Shown here: one piece after another, positions 13,970 to 32,018 of the stretch | Layout of the letters: every line of letters starts with the position of its first letter | Numbering within the stretch: position 1 is the first letter of the stretch | Source: Bacteroidales bacterium | GTDB taxonomy: Bacteria > Bacteroidota > Bacteroidia > Bacteroidales > UBA932 | Length of the DNA stretch: 64,000 nucleotides | Assembly: GCA_017619655.1 (NCBI GenBank) | Contig: JAFZRV010000004.1 | Coordinates: forward strand, 1-64,000 | Reading direction: 5' to 3' | The notes under the pieces: model-generated | Seen by the model: the letters and a program-made list of their open reading frames with translations, nothing else | The model's database searches: none | What the model was told of the DNA's origin: nothing | Made by a program: the position numbers and the translations under genes

Positions 13970-14935
13970 TCAATCCATCGACTGTCCCGTGGTCAGGGCG
14001 ACGACCATCATCGTGTGGAAGGTCGCCGGGTCGAGATCCGCAAAGAAATAGTTGACGGGCTCCTGGACGAAGCCGCCGCGCAGCACTTCGTAGTGCAGGC
14101 AGGGGGCGAAGCACGAGCCGCTCTGGCCCACCGTGCCGATCTGATCGCCCTGGCGGATGGTCTGTCCTTCGGAGACTTTGATGGAATTCAGGTGGGCATA
14201 CACGGTCTGCAGCCCGTTGGGATGCTCGACCGTCACCCGGTTGCCCATTCCCTTCTCGCTCTTGACCACGCGCGTCACTTTCCCGTCGGCGCTGCAGCGC
14301 ACGAGGGTTCCGGCGGGCACCACCAGGTCGATGCCCGTGTGCTCCCGGATGGTCTTGTAGAAAGGCGTGATCTTCTTGCCCACCGACGCGCCGGTCTGCA
14401 GCGGGGAGAAAGGCTTGACCGGCACCGTCGACGGGATGGCCGTGGGCCGGATGTTGCCGCTGGCCAGCAGCGTGTCGATCTCCGTCAGCCAGCGCGTCAC
14501 CAGCGAAGCGGTGGATTCCACGCGGTTGGTGAGCGCGTAGGTGTCCCACACCAGGTCGCTCTCCGACATGGATTCGAGCTCCCCGCCCAGCTGGAGCAGC
14601 GTGTCCTGCGCCTCGATGGTATAGTTGGACGGATCCGCGCCGAACAGTTCCCGGTAGATCTCCCGGTCGCGGACCTGCAGGTTCCCCACCGTCCCCTCGA
14701 TGCGGTCGAGCTGGGCCGTGAGGGTCGCGTACTCCTCCGAGAGCAACTGGTTCTCCCGCTCGAGCAGCAGCTCGCGGTCCGTGCTGAACACCAGCGCGAA
14801 GACCGCATAGAACACGACCGCAGCCGCCACGATGGCGAAGACATAGCGCAGCAGCGCGCCGAGCACGCTTTTCAGCGTGGGCTTCTTCGGGACGAACGCG
14901 CCCCGCTTCTCGTCGAACACGTATCGTTTAGCCAT
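13970..14935 (-). CDS. M23/LytM-domain protein with altered catalytic site
   Basis: This 321-residue inner-membrane protein has a cytoplasmic N terminus, one membrane helix (residues 28-50), a coiled coil (54-90) and a periplasmic LytM fold. Zinc ligands His199 and Asp203 (HTGID) and His248 (AHLN) are kept. In the usual H-x-H motif, however, the first His is replaced by Cys279 (APCLHYEV), leaving His281. That first His is a catalytic residue in active M23 enzymes, so this protein may be a non-hydrolytic regulator in the manner of EnvC or NlpD. The start overlaps the upstream M23 gene by 8 bp. Confidence 0.9.
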   Translation of the reverse strand: MAKRYVFDEKRGAFVPKKPTLKSVLGALLRYVFAIVAAAVVFYAVFALVFSTDRELLLERENQLLSEEYATLTAQLDRIEGTVGNLQVRDREIYRELFGADPSNYTIEAQDTLLQLGGELESMSESDLVWDTYALTNRVESTASLVTRWLTEIDTLLASGNIRPTAIPSTVPVKPFSPLQTGASVGKKITPFYKTIREHTGIDLVVPAGTLVRCSADGKVTRVVKSEKGMGNRVTVEHPNGLQTVYAHLNSIKVSEGQTIRQGDQIGTVGQSGSCFAPCLHYEVLRGGFVQEPVNYFFADLDPATFHTMMVVALTTGQSMD

Positions 14936-15881
14936 TGCGCGCCTGCTTGTTGTATTCTTCCGGGGAGATATCGGGATTCAAGTAGTTCCAGGGGTTGATC
15001 TGCGTGCCGCGGTAGATCACTTCGTAGTGGAGGTGCGGGCCGGTCGACAGGCCGCTGTTGCCCAGCGTGCCGATCTTGTCGCCACGGATCACCACCTGCC
15101 CGGCGGTCACTTTGATTTCCTTGAGGTGGGCGTAGCGGGTCTTGTAGCCGAAGCCGTGGTCGATGACGATCACGTTGCCGTAGCCCGAGAAGTTGATCTG
15201 GGTCGATTCCACCACGCCGTCGCCGGTCGCATAGACAGGCTGTCCGGCCGGCCCGGCCAGGTCGACGCCCTCATGGAAGATGATGGCCTGGCGCACGGGA
15301 TGGAAGCGCGCGCCGAAGGGGCTGGTGATGGTGACGGTCTTGGGATTGACCGGATAGATGGAGGGAATGCAGGAAGCCATGTCGCCCGCCCGGCTCGAAT
15401 AGATCCGTACTTCGTCGAACGAGAGGGTCTGCACGTAGGCCTTGCGCGTCAGCCCGTCGACCTGGCGGGCCGCATCGGCCATCAGCTCGGCGTGGTCGAG
15501 CCCCAGGAACACGTCGTAGCGCTCCGCGCCGCCCAGGCCGGCATTCCGTTCTTCCGCCGGGATCTCTTCCATGCCGAAGACCGGGCGGTACACGAGGTTG
15601 TCGCGCAGCGACAGGTCGAGCAGCACCGCGTCCTGCGTCTCGATGCGCCCCTCCAGCATCCCGATCTGCTCGGCCAGCGCGCGGTTGTCGCGCTGCAGCA
15701 GCAGCTCCTTGGGCGAGGCGTTGCCCCGCGCCTGGATGAACACGAAGAAATAGACGAGGAAGCAGCTGATCCCGCCCAGCAGCACGGCCATGGACTTGTA
15801 GACGGTGGCACGGGCCGACAGCCTGTCGACTTCGAAGGCCTGGGTCTGTTCGTTGTAGATATAACGGATTTGGCGGGACAT
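14928..15881 (-). CDS. M23-family peptidoglycan endopeptidase
   Basis: This 317-residue paralogue of the next gene has the same plan: cytoplasmic N terminus, one membrane helix (30-50), coiled coil (55-90) and a periplasmic M23 domain. All active-site residues are present: His203 and Asp207 (HEGVD), His252 (AHLK) and His283-x-His285 (GPHLHYEV). It should cleave peptide cross-links in peptidoglycan. ATG 15881 is preferred over upstream in-frame starts because the protein then opens with the conserved [13 protein letters not shown] block. It is divergent from alaS and leads an M23-M23-MerR-Nif3 run. Confidence 0.93.
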
Positions 15882-15899
15882 TGACCGATTTCTGCAGTA

Positions 15900-15981: not shown

Positions 15982-18594
<2,613 letters not shown>

Positions 18595-18597
18595 TGG

Positions 18598-21030
18598 ATG
18601 AAGAAACTCGACCTTTACCTGATCAAGACGTTCATAGGCCCCTTCGTGGCGGTCTTCCTCATCGTAGTGTTTTCGCTGTCGATGCAGTTCATCTGGCAGT
18701 TCATCTACGACCTGGCGGGTAAGGGTCTCGGCATGGGGGTGATCTTCGAGTTCATGGGATGGGCTTCGTGCACCCTCTTCCCCAACGCCATTCCGCTGGC
18801 CACGCTGCTGGCCTCCATCATGACCCTGGGCAACCTGGGCGAGCGCAACGAGCTCCTGGCCATGAAAGCGGCCGGGGTCTCGCTGATGCGCATCCTGGCT
18901 CCGCTGATGATCGTTTCGGTGCTGATCTCCATCGGCGCTTTCTTCGCCGCCGACCGCCTGGTGCCGCATGCCTTCAACAAGGTCTACACGCTGCGGGCCG
19001 ACATCCTGCGCACGCGCGACGAGATCAAGATCCCGACCGGCATCTTCTACGACGGCATCGAAGGCTACAACCTCCGCATCTCCTCGCGGAACGACGACAC
19101 CGACATGATGTACGATCTGGTGATCTACGACCACACCGGCAACAGCGGCAACAACGACAACGTGATCATGGCCGACAGCGGCCGCCTCTACATCACGCCC
19201 GACAAGCAGAACCTGATCTTCGACCTCTACAGCGGCTGCTCCTATACGGAAACCAACGAGATGAACTACCGCGACACGACGCTCGAGTTGCTGCGCTCCC
19301 GCTTCGACGAGCAGCAGATGATCATCTCGCTCGACAACTACACCTTCGAGCGCTCGTCGGAAGACCAGTACGGCGACGAGATCAAGTCGCTCGGCCTAAA
19401 GCGCCTGCGCACCGACCGCGACTCGCTCGCGCGCCGGGTCGACACGGCGGTCATGCGCCAGACCCCGCGCTTCATGAGCGTCATGGGCATGCATTATCTC
19501 TACCAGCTCGACACCCTCCGGCCCGATTCGGCCTACATCGGCGTCCTCAACGTGGACAGCCTCCGCCGGGACTTCACGGAACAGCAGGTACTGCGCATGA
19601 ACCAGTCGGCCGTGGGCAAGGCACAGCAGGGACTGGAGCAGGTGAGCCAGTTCTACATCGAGACGAAATACGACCTGGGCCTGATCCGGCGCATCGACAT
19701 CGAGATGATCCTCAAGTTCACCCTGTCGATCTCCTGCCTGCTCTTCTTCTTCGTGGGTGCGCCGCTGGGCGCCATCATCCGCAAGGGCGGCCTGGGCGCA
19801 CCGGTCATCATCTCGATCTTCTTCTACCTGATCTACTACATCATCGACATCATCGGCCGCAAGCTGGCCAAGGGATCGCTGCCGCCTCTGGTGGGCACGC
19901 TGATCTCGACAGCCATCCTCCTGCCGATCAGCATCCTCCTCACCCGCAAGTCCACGCAGGACTCCTCGCTCTTCAACATGGATACCTACAAGGAATTCTT
20001 CCGGCGCATCGGCAAGTGGATCGCCAAGCGCTACCACCGCTTCATCAACCTGTTCCGGCGGGGCGGCGGCAAGGTGCGCATCGTCTACATGGGCACGCCC
20101 GAATTCGCCGTGGCGCCGCTCGAGAAGCTGCTGGAGGCGGGCTATGAGGTGGCCGGCGTGGTGACCGCCGTCGACAAGCCGGCCGGGCGCGGCATGGCCG
20201 TGCGCGAAAGCGCCGTCAAGCAATACGCCGTGGCCCGCGGCATCCCCGTGCTGCAGCCTGAAAAGCTCAAGGACCCGGAATTCCTGGCGCAACTGGCCGC
20301 CCTGAAGGCCAATCTCTTCGTGGTAGTGGCCTTCCGCATGCTGCCCAAGGAGGTGTGGCAGATGCCGTCCATGGGCACCTTCAACCTCCACGCGTCGCTG
20401 CTGCCGCAGTACCGCGGCGCGGCGCCGATCAACTGGGCCATCATCCGGGGCGAGAAGTTCACGGGCGTCACGACCTTCCTGCTCGACGAGCAGATCGACA
20501 CCGGCAAGATCCTCTTCCAGGAGAACTGTCCCATCGAGGACTACGAGGACGCCGGCGCCCTGCACGACAAGTTGATGAAGATGGGCGCGGACCTGGTGCT
20601 CAAGACGGTCGACGCGCTGGAGAACCACCGCACGAAGCCGTACGAGCAGAGCCTCGGCATGAACCGGACCCTCTATCCGGCACCGAAACTCACACGCGAC
20701 AACTGCCACATCGACTGGACGGCCAGCGCCCGTCGCGTCAGCCTCCTCATCCGCGGCCTGAGTCCCTACCCGGCCGCCTGGACCACGCTCGTCAAGGACG
20801 ACGGCACCCAGCTGGGCATCAAGCTCTACGACAGCTATGTCGTGCCCTGCGACGACGACGACCCGCGCACGCCCGGCCAGCTGACCACCGACGGCAAATC
20901 CTGGATCGAGGTGCGCTGCGGCCAGCAGGCGCTCCGCATCCTCAGCCTCCAGCTATCCGGCAAGAAACGCATGGATGTCGCCGACTTCCTCCGCGGCTTC
21001 CGCGAACCCGAAAGCTATCACTTCGAATAG
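18598..21030 (+). CDS. fmt: LptF/LptG-family permease fused in frame to methionyl-tRNA formyltransferase
   Basis: One 810-residue reading frame encodes two normally separate proteins. Residues 1-492 are a YjgP/YjgQ (LptF/LptG) LPS-export permease: three N-terminal helices, a periplasmic domain, three C-terminal helices (about 365-450) and a basic cytoplasmic tail. Residues 493-810 are a complete methionyl-tRNA formyltransferase starting exactly at VRIVYMGTPEF, with catalytic Asn596, His598 and Asp634 (NLHAS, DEQIDTG) present. Fmt formylates initiator Met-tRNA. There is no stop codon between the parts. The junction codon is GTG (20074), so Fmt could also be made by internal initiation. The 3' end overlaps queG (convergent) by 13 bp. 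Confidence 0.92.
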   Translation: MKKLDLYLIKTFIGPFVAVFLIVVFSLSMQFIWQFIYDLAGKGLGMGVIFEFMGWASCTLFPNAIPLATLLASIMTLGNLGERNELLAMKAAGVSLMRILAPLMIVSVLISIGAFFAADRLVPHAFNKVYTLRADILRTRDEIKIPTGIFYDGIEGYNLRISSRNDDTDMMYDLVIYDHTGNSGNNDNVIMADSGRLYITPDKQNLIFDLYSGCSYTETNEMNYRDTTLELLRSRFDEQQMIISLDNYTFERSSEDQYGDEIKSLGLKRLRTDRDSLARRVDTAVMRQTPRFMSVMGMHYLYQLDTLRPDSAYIGVLNVDSLRRDFTEQQVLRMNQSAVGKAQQGLEQVSQFYIETKYDLGLIRRIDIEMILKFTLSISCLLFFFVGAPLGAIIRKGGLGAPVIISIFFYLIYYIIDIIGRKLAKGSLPPLVGTLISTAILLPISILLTRKSTQDSSLFNMDTYKEFFRRIGKWIAKRYHRFINLFRRGGGKVRIVYMGTPEFAVAPLEKLLEAGYEVAGVVTAVDKPAGRGMAVRESAVKQYAVARGIPVLQPEKLKDPEFLAQLAALKANLFVVVAFRMLPKEVWQMPSMGTFNLHASLLPQYRGAAPINWAIIRGEKFTGVTTFLLDEQIDTGKILFQENCPIEDYEDAGALHDKLMKMGADLVLKTVDALENHRTKPYEQSLGMNRTLYPAPKLTRDNCHIDWTASARRVSLLIRGLSPYPAAWTTLVKDDGTQLGIKLYDSYVVPCDDDDPRTPGQLTTDGKSWIEVRCGQQALRILSLQLSGKKRMDVADFLRGFREPESYHFE

Positions 21031-21914
21031 TTGTTCCGCAACTGGTCCAGCCCGGCCCGACGAAGGCCTGAGTCGGCGAAGCGCCGCTCGAATTCATCTT
21101 CGCTGAGCGATGACCAGTCGGCGTCGGACATGGCGGCGATTTCGGCGCGGTGCGTCTCGAACTCGGGCAGCGGCGTGAGCGGCTTGTCCCAGGGGCAGGC
21201 GCGCATGCACTCTTCGCAGCCGAAGCGCCAGCCGCGGCGCGCGGCGACGGAGGCGAGGTCTGCGGGCAGCGGCGCATGCGACTCGATGGTCAGGTACGAG
21301 AGGCAGCGGCGGGCGTCGAGGTCGAAAGGTGCGCGGAGGGCGCCGGAGGGACAGGCGCGGAGGCAGGCACCGCAGGCGCCACATTCGGTGGCTGCCAGCG
21401 GCGCGTGCGGCGCGAAGCGTTCGGCCGGTATGTTGCAGACGATCACGCCGATGATGGTCCGCAGGCCGAATTCGGGCGAGATGAAGAAATTGTTCTGCCC
21501 GATGAAGCCCAGGCCGGCGCGGACAGCCCAGTAGCGCTCGAGGATTGGCGCGCTGTCGACGAAAGGCCGGCCCTCGAATGCGGAAAAGGCGGCCTTCAAT
21601 TCACCGATGACGGCGAAAAGCCGGTCTTTGACAATCTTGTGATAGTCCACGCCCTGGGCGAAGCCCGCCACGCCGCCACCCGCCTGTCCGTACGGGGCCA
21701 GGAAGCAGAGCACGCTCTCCGCTCCCGGCACCAGCTGCGCCGGATCGAAGCGCTTCTCCAGGTTCCGCGCGAGGTAGCCCATTTCCCCGTGGCGTCCTTC
21801 CGCGAGGAAGGCCTCGAAGCGGGGACGGATCGTCTCTATTTTTTCGGCCCTTGCGGCACCAAAATCCAAGAAACCATGCGCGCGGTAATTGATTTTTATT
21901 AAATTTGTGGACAA
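21018..21914 (-). CDS. queG: Epoxyqueuosine reductase
   Basis: QueG makes the last step of queuosine in tRNA, reducing epoxyqueuosine with a cobalamin cofactor and two 4Fe-4S clusters. The 298-residue protein has the catalytic-type Asp120 in VDSAPILERYWAVRAGLGFIG, and the clusters CGACGACLRACP and CEECMRACPWD. The only plausible start is TTG 21914 (MSTNLIKIN), as no in-frame ATG comes before the conserved region. It is divergent from the threonine dehydrogenase gene by 24 bp. tgt, the other queuosine gene here, lies about 8 kb downstream. Confidence 0.92.
   Translation of the reverse strand: MSTNLIKINYRAHGFLDFGAARAEKIETIRPRFEAFLAEGRHGEMGYLARNLEKRFDPAQLVPGAESVLCFLAPYGQAGGGVAGFAQGVDYHKIVKDRLFAVIGELKAAFSAFEGRPFVDSAPILERYWAVRAGLGFIGQNNFFISPEFGLRTIIGVIVCNIPAERFAPHAPLAATECGACGACLRACPSGALRAPFDLDARRCLSYLTIESHAPLPADLASVAARRGWRFGCEECMRACPWDKPLTPLPEFETHRAEIAAMSDADWSSLSEDEFERRFADSGLRRAGLDQLRNNYSK
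21900..21907 (+). promoter_or_regulatory. Possible -7 box for threonine dehydrogenase
   Basis: TAAATTTG lies inside the first codons of queG, about 32 bases before the dehydrogenase ATG. No well-spaced -33 box is evident. Confidence 0.4.
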
Positions 21915-29786: not shown

Positions 29787-30917
<1,131 letters not shown>

Positions 30918-30920
30918 CCC

Positions 30921-32018
30921 ATGAACCTGCCACACGTCAAGATCCTCGACAAGTACATCGTGAAGAAGTTCCTCGGAACCTTCTTCTTCACGATCATGAT
31001 CGGCGTGTCCATCGTCATCATCTTCGACCTGAGCGAGAAGATCGACAAGTTCGTGGAGAAGAACGTGCCGGTCCACGAGATCATCTTCGACTACTTCGGC
31101 GGCTTTATCCCGTGGATCGTCAACAACTTCAGCCCGCTGCTCGTCTTCATCTCGGCCATCTTCTTCACGTCGAAGCTGGCCCAGAACAGCGAGATCGTGG
31201 CCATGCTGTCGGGCGGCATCAGCTTCCGGCGTATCATGGCGCCCTATATGTTCTCGGCGGCCGTCATCTGCGGCCTGTCGCTGCTGCTGGGCCTCTACAT
31301 CATCCCGCCCGCCAACCAGAAACGCCTCGACTTCGAGAACAAATACATCAAGGCCCAGAGCATCGTGGCCAATACCCAACGCAACATCCACTACCAGCTC
31401 TCGCCGGGCGAGTACGTATACTTCGGGCAGTTCAGCTCCGCGAGCAACACGGCCTACGGCTTCACGCTGGAACGCGTGGAGCACAACCGCATCGTCTCGA
31501 AGCTCTCCGCCACGTCGGCTGCCTGGGACACGAGTTTCAACGGCTGGCGGCTGCGCAACTACTACATCCGCGATTTCTACGGAGAGTCCGAAGTGGTGCG
31601 GACCGGCAAGCAGCTCGACACGGTGCTGCAGCTGACCCTCGAGGACTTCTACCGGCGCAAGAATTCCGTGGAGTCGCTCTCCGGAAGCGACCTCAACGAG
31701 CTGATCCGCGTCCAGCGCATGCGGGGCGACGACATGGTCAAGCACGCCCTCATCGAGAAGCACAACCGCATCGCCATGCCCTTCTCGGCCTTCGTGCTGA
31801 CGGTCATCGCCGTGTCGCTGTCCTCGCGCAAGAAGCGCGGCGGCCTGGGCCTGAACATCGGTATCGGCCTGGCCATCAGTTTCGCATACATCCTGTTCAT
31901 GCGCTTCAGCCAGATGTTCGTGCTGAAGGGCATCATGCCGCCCGCCCTGGCCATGTGGGTGCCCAACCTGGTCTTCGCCGTCGTGGCGGCCATCCTCTAC
32001 AAGCTCGCACCGAAATAA
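30921..32018 (+). CDS. LptF/LptG-family LPS export permease
   Basis: This 365-residue YjgP/YjgQ permease begins with ILDKYIVKKFLGTFFFTIMIGVS, the first of three N-terminal helices. A periplasmic jellyroll-like domain (about 125-255) and three C-terminal helices follow. In the Lpt machine LptF and LptG pair with the ATPase LptB to lift LPS from the inner membrane and pass it to the periplasmic bridge. Its usual partner would be the other family member in the window (fused to Fmt at 18.6 kb). Which is LptF and which is LptG is not certain. It lies directly after tgt, a common Bacteroidota pairing. Confidence 0.9.
   Translation: MNLPHVKILDKYIVKKFLGTFFFTIMIGVSIVIIFDLSEKIDKFVEKNVPVHEIIFDYFGGFIPWIVNNFSPLLVFISAIFFTSKLAQNSEIVAMLSGGISFRRIMAPYMFSAAVICGLSLLLGLYIIPPANQKRLDFENKYIKAQSIVANTQRNIHYQLSPGEYVYFGQFSSASNTAYGFTLERVEHNRIVSKLSATSAAWDTSFNGWRLRNYYIRDFYGESEVVRTGKQLDTVLQLTLEDFYRRKNSVESLSGSDLNELIRVQRMRGDDMVKHALIEKHNRIAMPFSAFVLTVIAVSLSSRKKRGGLGLNIGIGLAISFAYILFMRFSQMFVLKGIMPPALAMWVPNLVFAVVAAILYKLAPK

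Follow-up and report, generated by a model that had tools for sequence, protein, structure and literature searches.

An open reading frame on the forward strand of the window, i.e., the whole stretch of 64,000 nucleotides that was analysed (contig JAFZRV010000004.1 of a Bacteroidales bacterium), joins an LptF/LptG-type permease to a methionyl-tRNA formyltransferase (Fmt), and judged by the occurrence of one open frame in many species with both domains complete, it appears to be a genuine gene fusion. The simplest account of the sequences is a single 91.5-kDa protein with both activities, and we consider it quite probable that the product is one inner-membrane protein of about this size in which both functions are kept and Fmt lies on the cytoplasmic side. 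Residues 1 to about 450 would supply the LptF-type half of the permease for LPS export and pair with an LptG-like protein encoded further downstream; residues 451–492 would be the permease's own basic cytoplasmic tail; and residues 493–810 would be the methionyl-tRNA formyltransferase, formylating initiator Met-tRNA on the cytoplasmic face. In such a protein, both halves would be active and the chain would stay uncleaved. The model is built on the single frame, the complete and constrained halves, the wide conservation of the join, the erosion of the Fmt start codon, the single Fmt in 25 of 26 fused genomes, and more than one origin of the fusion.

Architecture and constraint of the fused protein

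The fused lptF-fmt gene (18598–21030, forward strand) comprises 810 codons and a stop, and its translation is free of internal stops. The LptF_LptG domain (PF03739) occupies residues 7–450 (18616–19947, forward strand) with 220 bits against a Pfam gathering cut-off of 27.9, and is whole, extending over positions 2–352 of the 353 in the profile. The Fmt half (residues 493–810; 20074–21027, forward strand; 35.5 kDa) is also full length. Formyl_trans_N is matched at residues 494–668 (122.1 bits, Pfam cut-off 26.1) and Formyl_trans_C at residues 697–802 (76.5 bits, cut-off 21.1), the gene passes the fmt equivalog model TIGR00460 of NCBIfam with 249.6 bits against a curated cut-off of 201.5, and the best match of solved structure is 1fmt (E 1.5e-59, aligned over residues 1–311 of 318). 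An earlier note on this DNA had proposed a permease and an Fmt joined in one frame with both halves complete, and these matches bear it out. The fused permease scores 128.1 bits with the LptF equivalog model TIGR04407, below its curated cut-off of 230, and 107.0 bits with the LptG model; it is referred to as LptF-like only, on the grounds of the higher LptF score and of the LptG-like character of the second permease. The second permease is encoded behind tgt (30921–32018, forward strand) and scores 199.4 bits for LptG and 135.6 for LptF, both under the curated cut-offs. It is likely the partner of the fused LptF. Two LptF/LptG genes are found in each of 32 genomes when split pieces are joined and a weak sub-cut-off match in G112 is set aside.

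Asn596 and His598 (20383–20391, forward strand) and Asp634 (20497–20499, forward strand), which we take to be the formyltransferase catalytic set, are invariant in all 111 fused genes, that of the window included, as is a loop arginine. The same is true of Glu82 and Glu85 in the permease, which presumably have roles in LptF/LptG. Ser600 in the SLLP motif of Fmt (20392–20409) is replaced by Ala in 33 of the 111, all from genus g22 (genera are numbered here, g1 being that of the window), while all 49 separate genes of the tree set have Ser at this position; Asn, His and Asp are fixed in g22 regardless. Two fused genes of g6 deviate from the GTPxF motif. Because of these departures, not every fused Fmt can be taken to be active. 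In comparisons of the window gene with seven relatives, dN/dS is 0.20–0.42 in the permease, 0.05–0.23 in Fmt, and 0.00–0.18 in the linker formed by residues 451–492. By this measure the tail is under purifying selection, estimated from few changes (0–10 nonsynonymous changes per pair).

The linker (19948–20073, forward strand), through which the C-terminal tail of the permease runs into Fmt, is basic, with a net charge of +9 in residues 465–492. In a Kyte–Doolittle scan, the strongest hydrophobic stretches lie near residues 6–24, 60–78, 99–117, 376–394, 401–419, and 431–449, with further overlapping stretches at 21–39, 88–106, and 381–399, and another stretch, 561–579, within the Fmt half. LptF-type permeases have the C-terminus on the cytoplasmic side, and together with the approximately six hydrophobic segments and the charge of the tail, this would place the Fmt half in the cytoplasm at the membrane. 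By eye, the fused tails are similar to the C-terminal tails of separate permeases, which indicates that the join brings little new sequence. A basic and probably exposed tail could also be where one polypeptide is cut to release a soluble Fmt, in which case the fusion would be a matter of co-expression. The sequence holds nothing against such cleavage, but a motif common to the tails of the nine fused genera is not evident by eye, and the number of residues separating the permease end from GTPxF ranges between 31 and 49, for which reasons we regard a cut in the tail as improbable and retain the intact membrane protein as the preferred reading.

To establish how many Fmt copies accompany the fusion, the fmt model was searched against 32 genomes, 26 of them fused. 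In 25 of these 26, exactly one Fmt exceeds the cut-off and is located inside the fusion, in frames of 806–840 residues. In the 26th, the g1 genome G039, the fused gene runs off its contig at residue 682, and contig ends divide the Fmt match into pieces of 184.3 and 66.8 bits. The matches to the model that remain in the 32 genomes are at or below 71.1 bits, and no second Fmt was found in the fused genomes searched, the window's genome included. The other Formyl_trans_N match in the window's genome sits in a frame of 192 residues, which from its size we take to be PurN. The fused Fmt is probably the only one of the cell. Peptide deformylase is encoded in all 26 fused genomes and in 32 of 33 genomes overall, the sole absence being from the window's own genome, which is 60.65% complete; from this distribution, formylation is probably still in use.

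Upstream of the fused gene, alaS (15985–18594, forward strand; TIGR00344 over the cut-off) ends 3 nt before the ATG, and the two genes probably belong to one transcription unit. Two neighbouring genes for M23-type peptidoglycan peptidases (13970–15896, reverse strand) are divergent from alaS. The two Lpt permease genes have queuosine genes as neighbours, namely queG (21018–21914, reverse strand) and tgt (29787–30917, forward strand).

Distribution and history of the join

A frame spanning both halves was searched for in 198 genomes, the window's own included, and recurs across g1 and in other genera of the family. Of 164 loci read, two were dropped because they had no permease match, and in 111 of the 162 with both genes placed the join is free of stops. 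These 111 belong to nine genera of one Bacteroidales family, which we take to be UBA932 of GTDB, with Cryptobacteroides: 37 are in g1, 37 in g22, 18 in g15, 12 in g6, three in g16, and one each in g2, g3, g5, and g23. In the other 51 loci the genes are separate; 47 of these loci belong to this family and four to others of the order, and in 46 of the 51 the two genes are no more than 100 bases apart. Within g1, the same stop-free frame is present in 37 of 40 genomes searched (again counting the window's own), and in genomes G008, G011, and G031 of this genus no match to Fmt exceeds the cut-off. Among the 37 g1 loci, ten also exist as named public contigs, with red deer, goat, sheep, and rumen among the sample sources; being the same DNA, these records add nothing to the count.

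The named public records are metagenome-assembled genomes, for which a sequencing or assembly artefact might be suspected, and the earlier note had named a sequencing change that removed a stop as one alternative, proposing that the junction be looked for in related genomes. The junction is there, and the same stop-free join in 111 genomes, reaching down to about 47–53% protein identity to the window protein, contradicts the loss of a stop through misreading. Occurrence of the frame in 37 of 40 g1 genomes and in eight other genera is compatible neither with chance nor with a local sequencing error. For the main clade, an artefact is refuted by this conservation, and as the cause of the fusion it can practically be dismissed, although a new reading could still change the single genomes G040 and G095.

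In a wider search of the family, 250 of 398 genomes match at E <= 1e-170, and among the matches listed or fetched at least nine of the 250 have a stop between the halves. At E <= 1e-112, seven of 393 genomes of the order match, six belonging to the same family as the window and one (G132) having internal stops, and the only match among 395 genomes of the phylum is the window's own. No fusion was thus found outside the family in the 393 order and 395 phylum genomes, a search that a very diverged or differently spaced fusion might escape.

A tree of both halves was computed for a subsample of 74 of 160 rows, 35 of the 74 being fused, with two short loci left out. On the free tree, the fused state requires five changes. 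Constraining all 35 fused rows to one clade costs 696 log-likelihood units (p-AU 6e-41), and omission of the g23 case from the constraint still leaves a cost of 72 units (p-AU 5.6e-4), by which a single origin of all fusions is rejected. One origin is not rejected for the six-genus clade of g1, g15, g3, g5, g22, and g16 (p 0.497), nor for g6 together with G040 (p 0.35), with the reservation that the groups submitted to the AU test were chosen after the first tree had been viewed and are not strictly a priori. This leaves a requirement of about three to five changes of state. Since separate genes are the condition in the outgroups and in most genera, several gains seem likelier than one gain followed by many losses. 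It is likely that the stop separating the neighbouring genes was lost repeatedly, and that the loss was tolerated since Fmt would accept N-terminal extensions and the permease tail would be free. Nine separate pairs in g4 and g14 (L047–L055) have both genes in one frame, about 20 bases apart and with only one or two stops in between, which puts them one or two steps away from a fusion, or from the split of one.

A return to two genes was not seen in g1, g6, g15, or g22, where 12 genomes without a spanning match were checked. Six of the 12 (G390, G312, G297, G031, G011, and G008) have no Fmt match, or none that exceeds the cut-off; of the six loci that were read, those of G384, G450, and G465 show the join, and in those of G454, G279, and G321 the contig ends within Fmt. 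All other family genomes searched that lacked a match are in genera with separate genes. The locus of G465 (L193) has a frame change in the permease near residues 181–192, the remainder still being joined to Fmt, which is either an assembly error or decay. A different kind of extension occurs in separate LptF-like permeases of g7, g8, and g20, where about 130–160 residues are added at the C-terminus (L162 in G046 and L164 in G092; by stop position also L161 in G045 and L165 in G105); for L162 and L164, Pfam gives nothing beyond LptF_LptG.

Compatible with the single-protein reading is the proposal that tethering is adaptive, i.e., that by keeping Fmt at the LPS-export complex the cell couples the formylation of initiator tRNA to its envelope. 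More than one origin and the lack of reversals in the four genera speak for it, and a selective benefit of tethering is possible. The same data would nevertheless be obtained if adjacent genes fused by chance and were hard to split again, and recurrence alone is for this reason no proof of benefit; we consider adaptive tethering a tentative idea that is more probably wrong than right. Somewhat more doubtful still is its stronger form, in which the LPS-export complex would serve as a platform for initiator-tRNA formylation, translation initiation and envelope export would have a component in common and might be co-regulated, and the arrangement would have been selected several times. To our knowledge, no functional link exists between LPS export and initiator-tRNA formylation.

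Start codons at the junction

The earlier note located the junction exactly at the natural first residue of Fmt, a GTG codon. As for the position, this is correct, since Val493 (GTG, 20074–20076, forward strand) is at the usual place for an Fmt start, but the start codon is not kept in relatives. Counting back from the GTPxF motif, the codon is at position −6, and among the 37 g1 members it is ATC in 26, GTG in 5, and GTC, ATA, and GTA in two each. With GTG in five of the 37 members, internal initiation at 20074, which the note had offered as a source of two proteins, is unlikely in the window's genus. ATG occurs in codons −18 to −4 of 35 out of 111 fused genes versus 47 out of 51 separate genes, and any of ATG, GTG, or TTG in the same interval of 62 out of 111 versus 51 out of 51. 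A complete lack of these three codons from −20 to −2 is found in 38 of the 111 fused genes (16 of them among the 37 of g1) versus none of the 51 separate genes, and from −30 to −2 in 22 of the fused genes; the Fisher tests on these counts ignore the relatedness of the genes, and the 111 again include two loci without the anchor motif, which is present in 109. Where there is no start codon from −20 to −2, Fmt would be made only within the long protein, barring unusual starts (e.g., ATC) or a start further upstream in the tail.

Internal initiation would yield two products, the full-length fusion and a free Fmt, with the start at GTG 20074 in the window and at in-frame ATGs elsewhere. The GTG is indeed in the exact place, start codons at −18 to −4 remain in the 62 fused genes counted above, and in g22 an ATG is kept in this interval by 27 of 37 fused genes (27 of the 35 fused ATG cases), with upstream A-richness like that of real starts (mean excess 0.225, versus 0.168 for 47 separate genes). 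A Lys-rich tail would, however, also give this A-richness. In g1, the 20 bases before the codon are not A-rich (mean excess −0.017), which together with the predominance of ATC and the 16 members devoid of start codons from −20 to −2 argues against a second product there. A Met directly before GTPxF is equally common in separate genes (51 of 51) and in fused genes (107 of 109), and starting at this residue would probably remove the first strand. An internal start is possible in g22, but as a general explanation the synthesis of two products appears quite unlikely, and the single 91.5-kDa protein is preferred. Among the linkers of g22 (e.g., L111 and L113), an in-frame ATG preceded by an A-rich sequence recurs at −9 or −12 relative to the Fmt core.

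Probable location of Fmt at the membrane and comparison with known systems

Fmt is normally a free cytosolic enzyme, and must reach every initiator tRNA. If the sole Fmt of these cells is part of an integral membrane protein, formylation can run from the membrane, and the fusion would lend itself to the question of whether translation initiation has a spatial organisation. For annotation, a pipeline that names the gene by one of its domains could report the other half as missing.

Both domains are known. A literature search at the level of titles and the opening parts of abstracts, mostly of openly accessible papers other than bioRxiv preprints, yielded no account of an LptF-Fmt fusion, in agreement with the earlier note, which knew of no described permease-Fmt fusion. 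The fused permease resembles LptF/LptG permeases (PF03739; solved structures 6mit, 6s8g, and 5l75) in its whole-domain match, its approximately six hydrophobic segments, and Glu82 and Glu85, but unlike in the known ones, its C-terminal tail runs on into a complete enzyme. Likewise, the Fmt half corresponds to Fmt (TIGR00460; 1fmt and 2fmt) in full length, equivalog score, and catalytic residues, and differs in that many of the fused forms have no start codon of their own and that they are attached to a membrane protein. In ArnA (1z7e), a related formyltransferase domain is also part of a two-domain protein. It differs in its substrate, which is a sugar, and in the partner domain, a soluble oxidase/decarboxylase.

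A further parallel is provided by fusions of transporter domains to the tRNA-modifying enzyme bTGT, as described in the part of PMC11130926 that was available. In that part, the account of bTGT fusions contains no permease-Fmt fusion, and LptG/F appears as a candidate transporter of queuosine precursors that was tested and did not complement (PMC11130926). As far as the available part of the source goes, the bTGT fusions and the one analysed here are alike in that a transporter is joined to an enzyme acting on tRNA; they differ in that the transporter of the bTGT fusions is proposed as the route by which the enzyme's substrate is brought in (PMC11130926).
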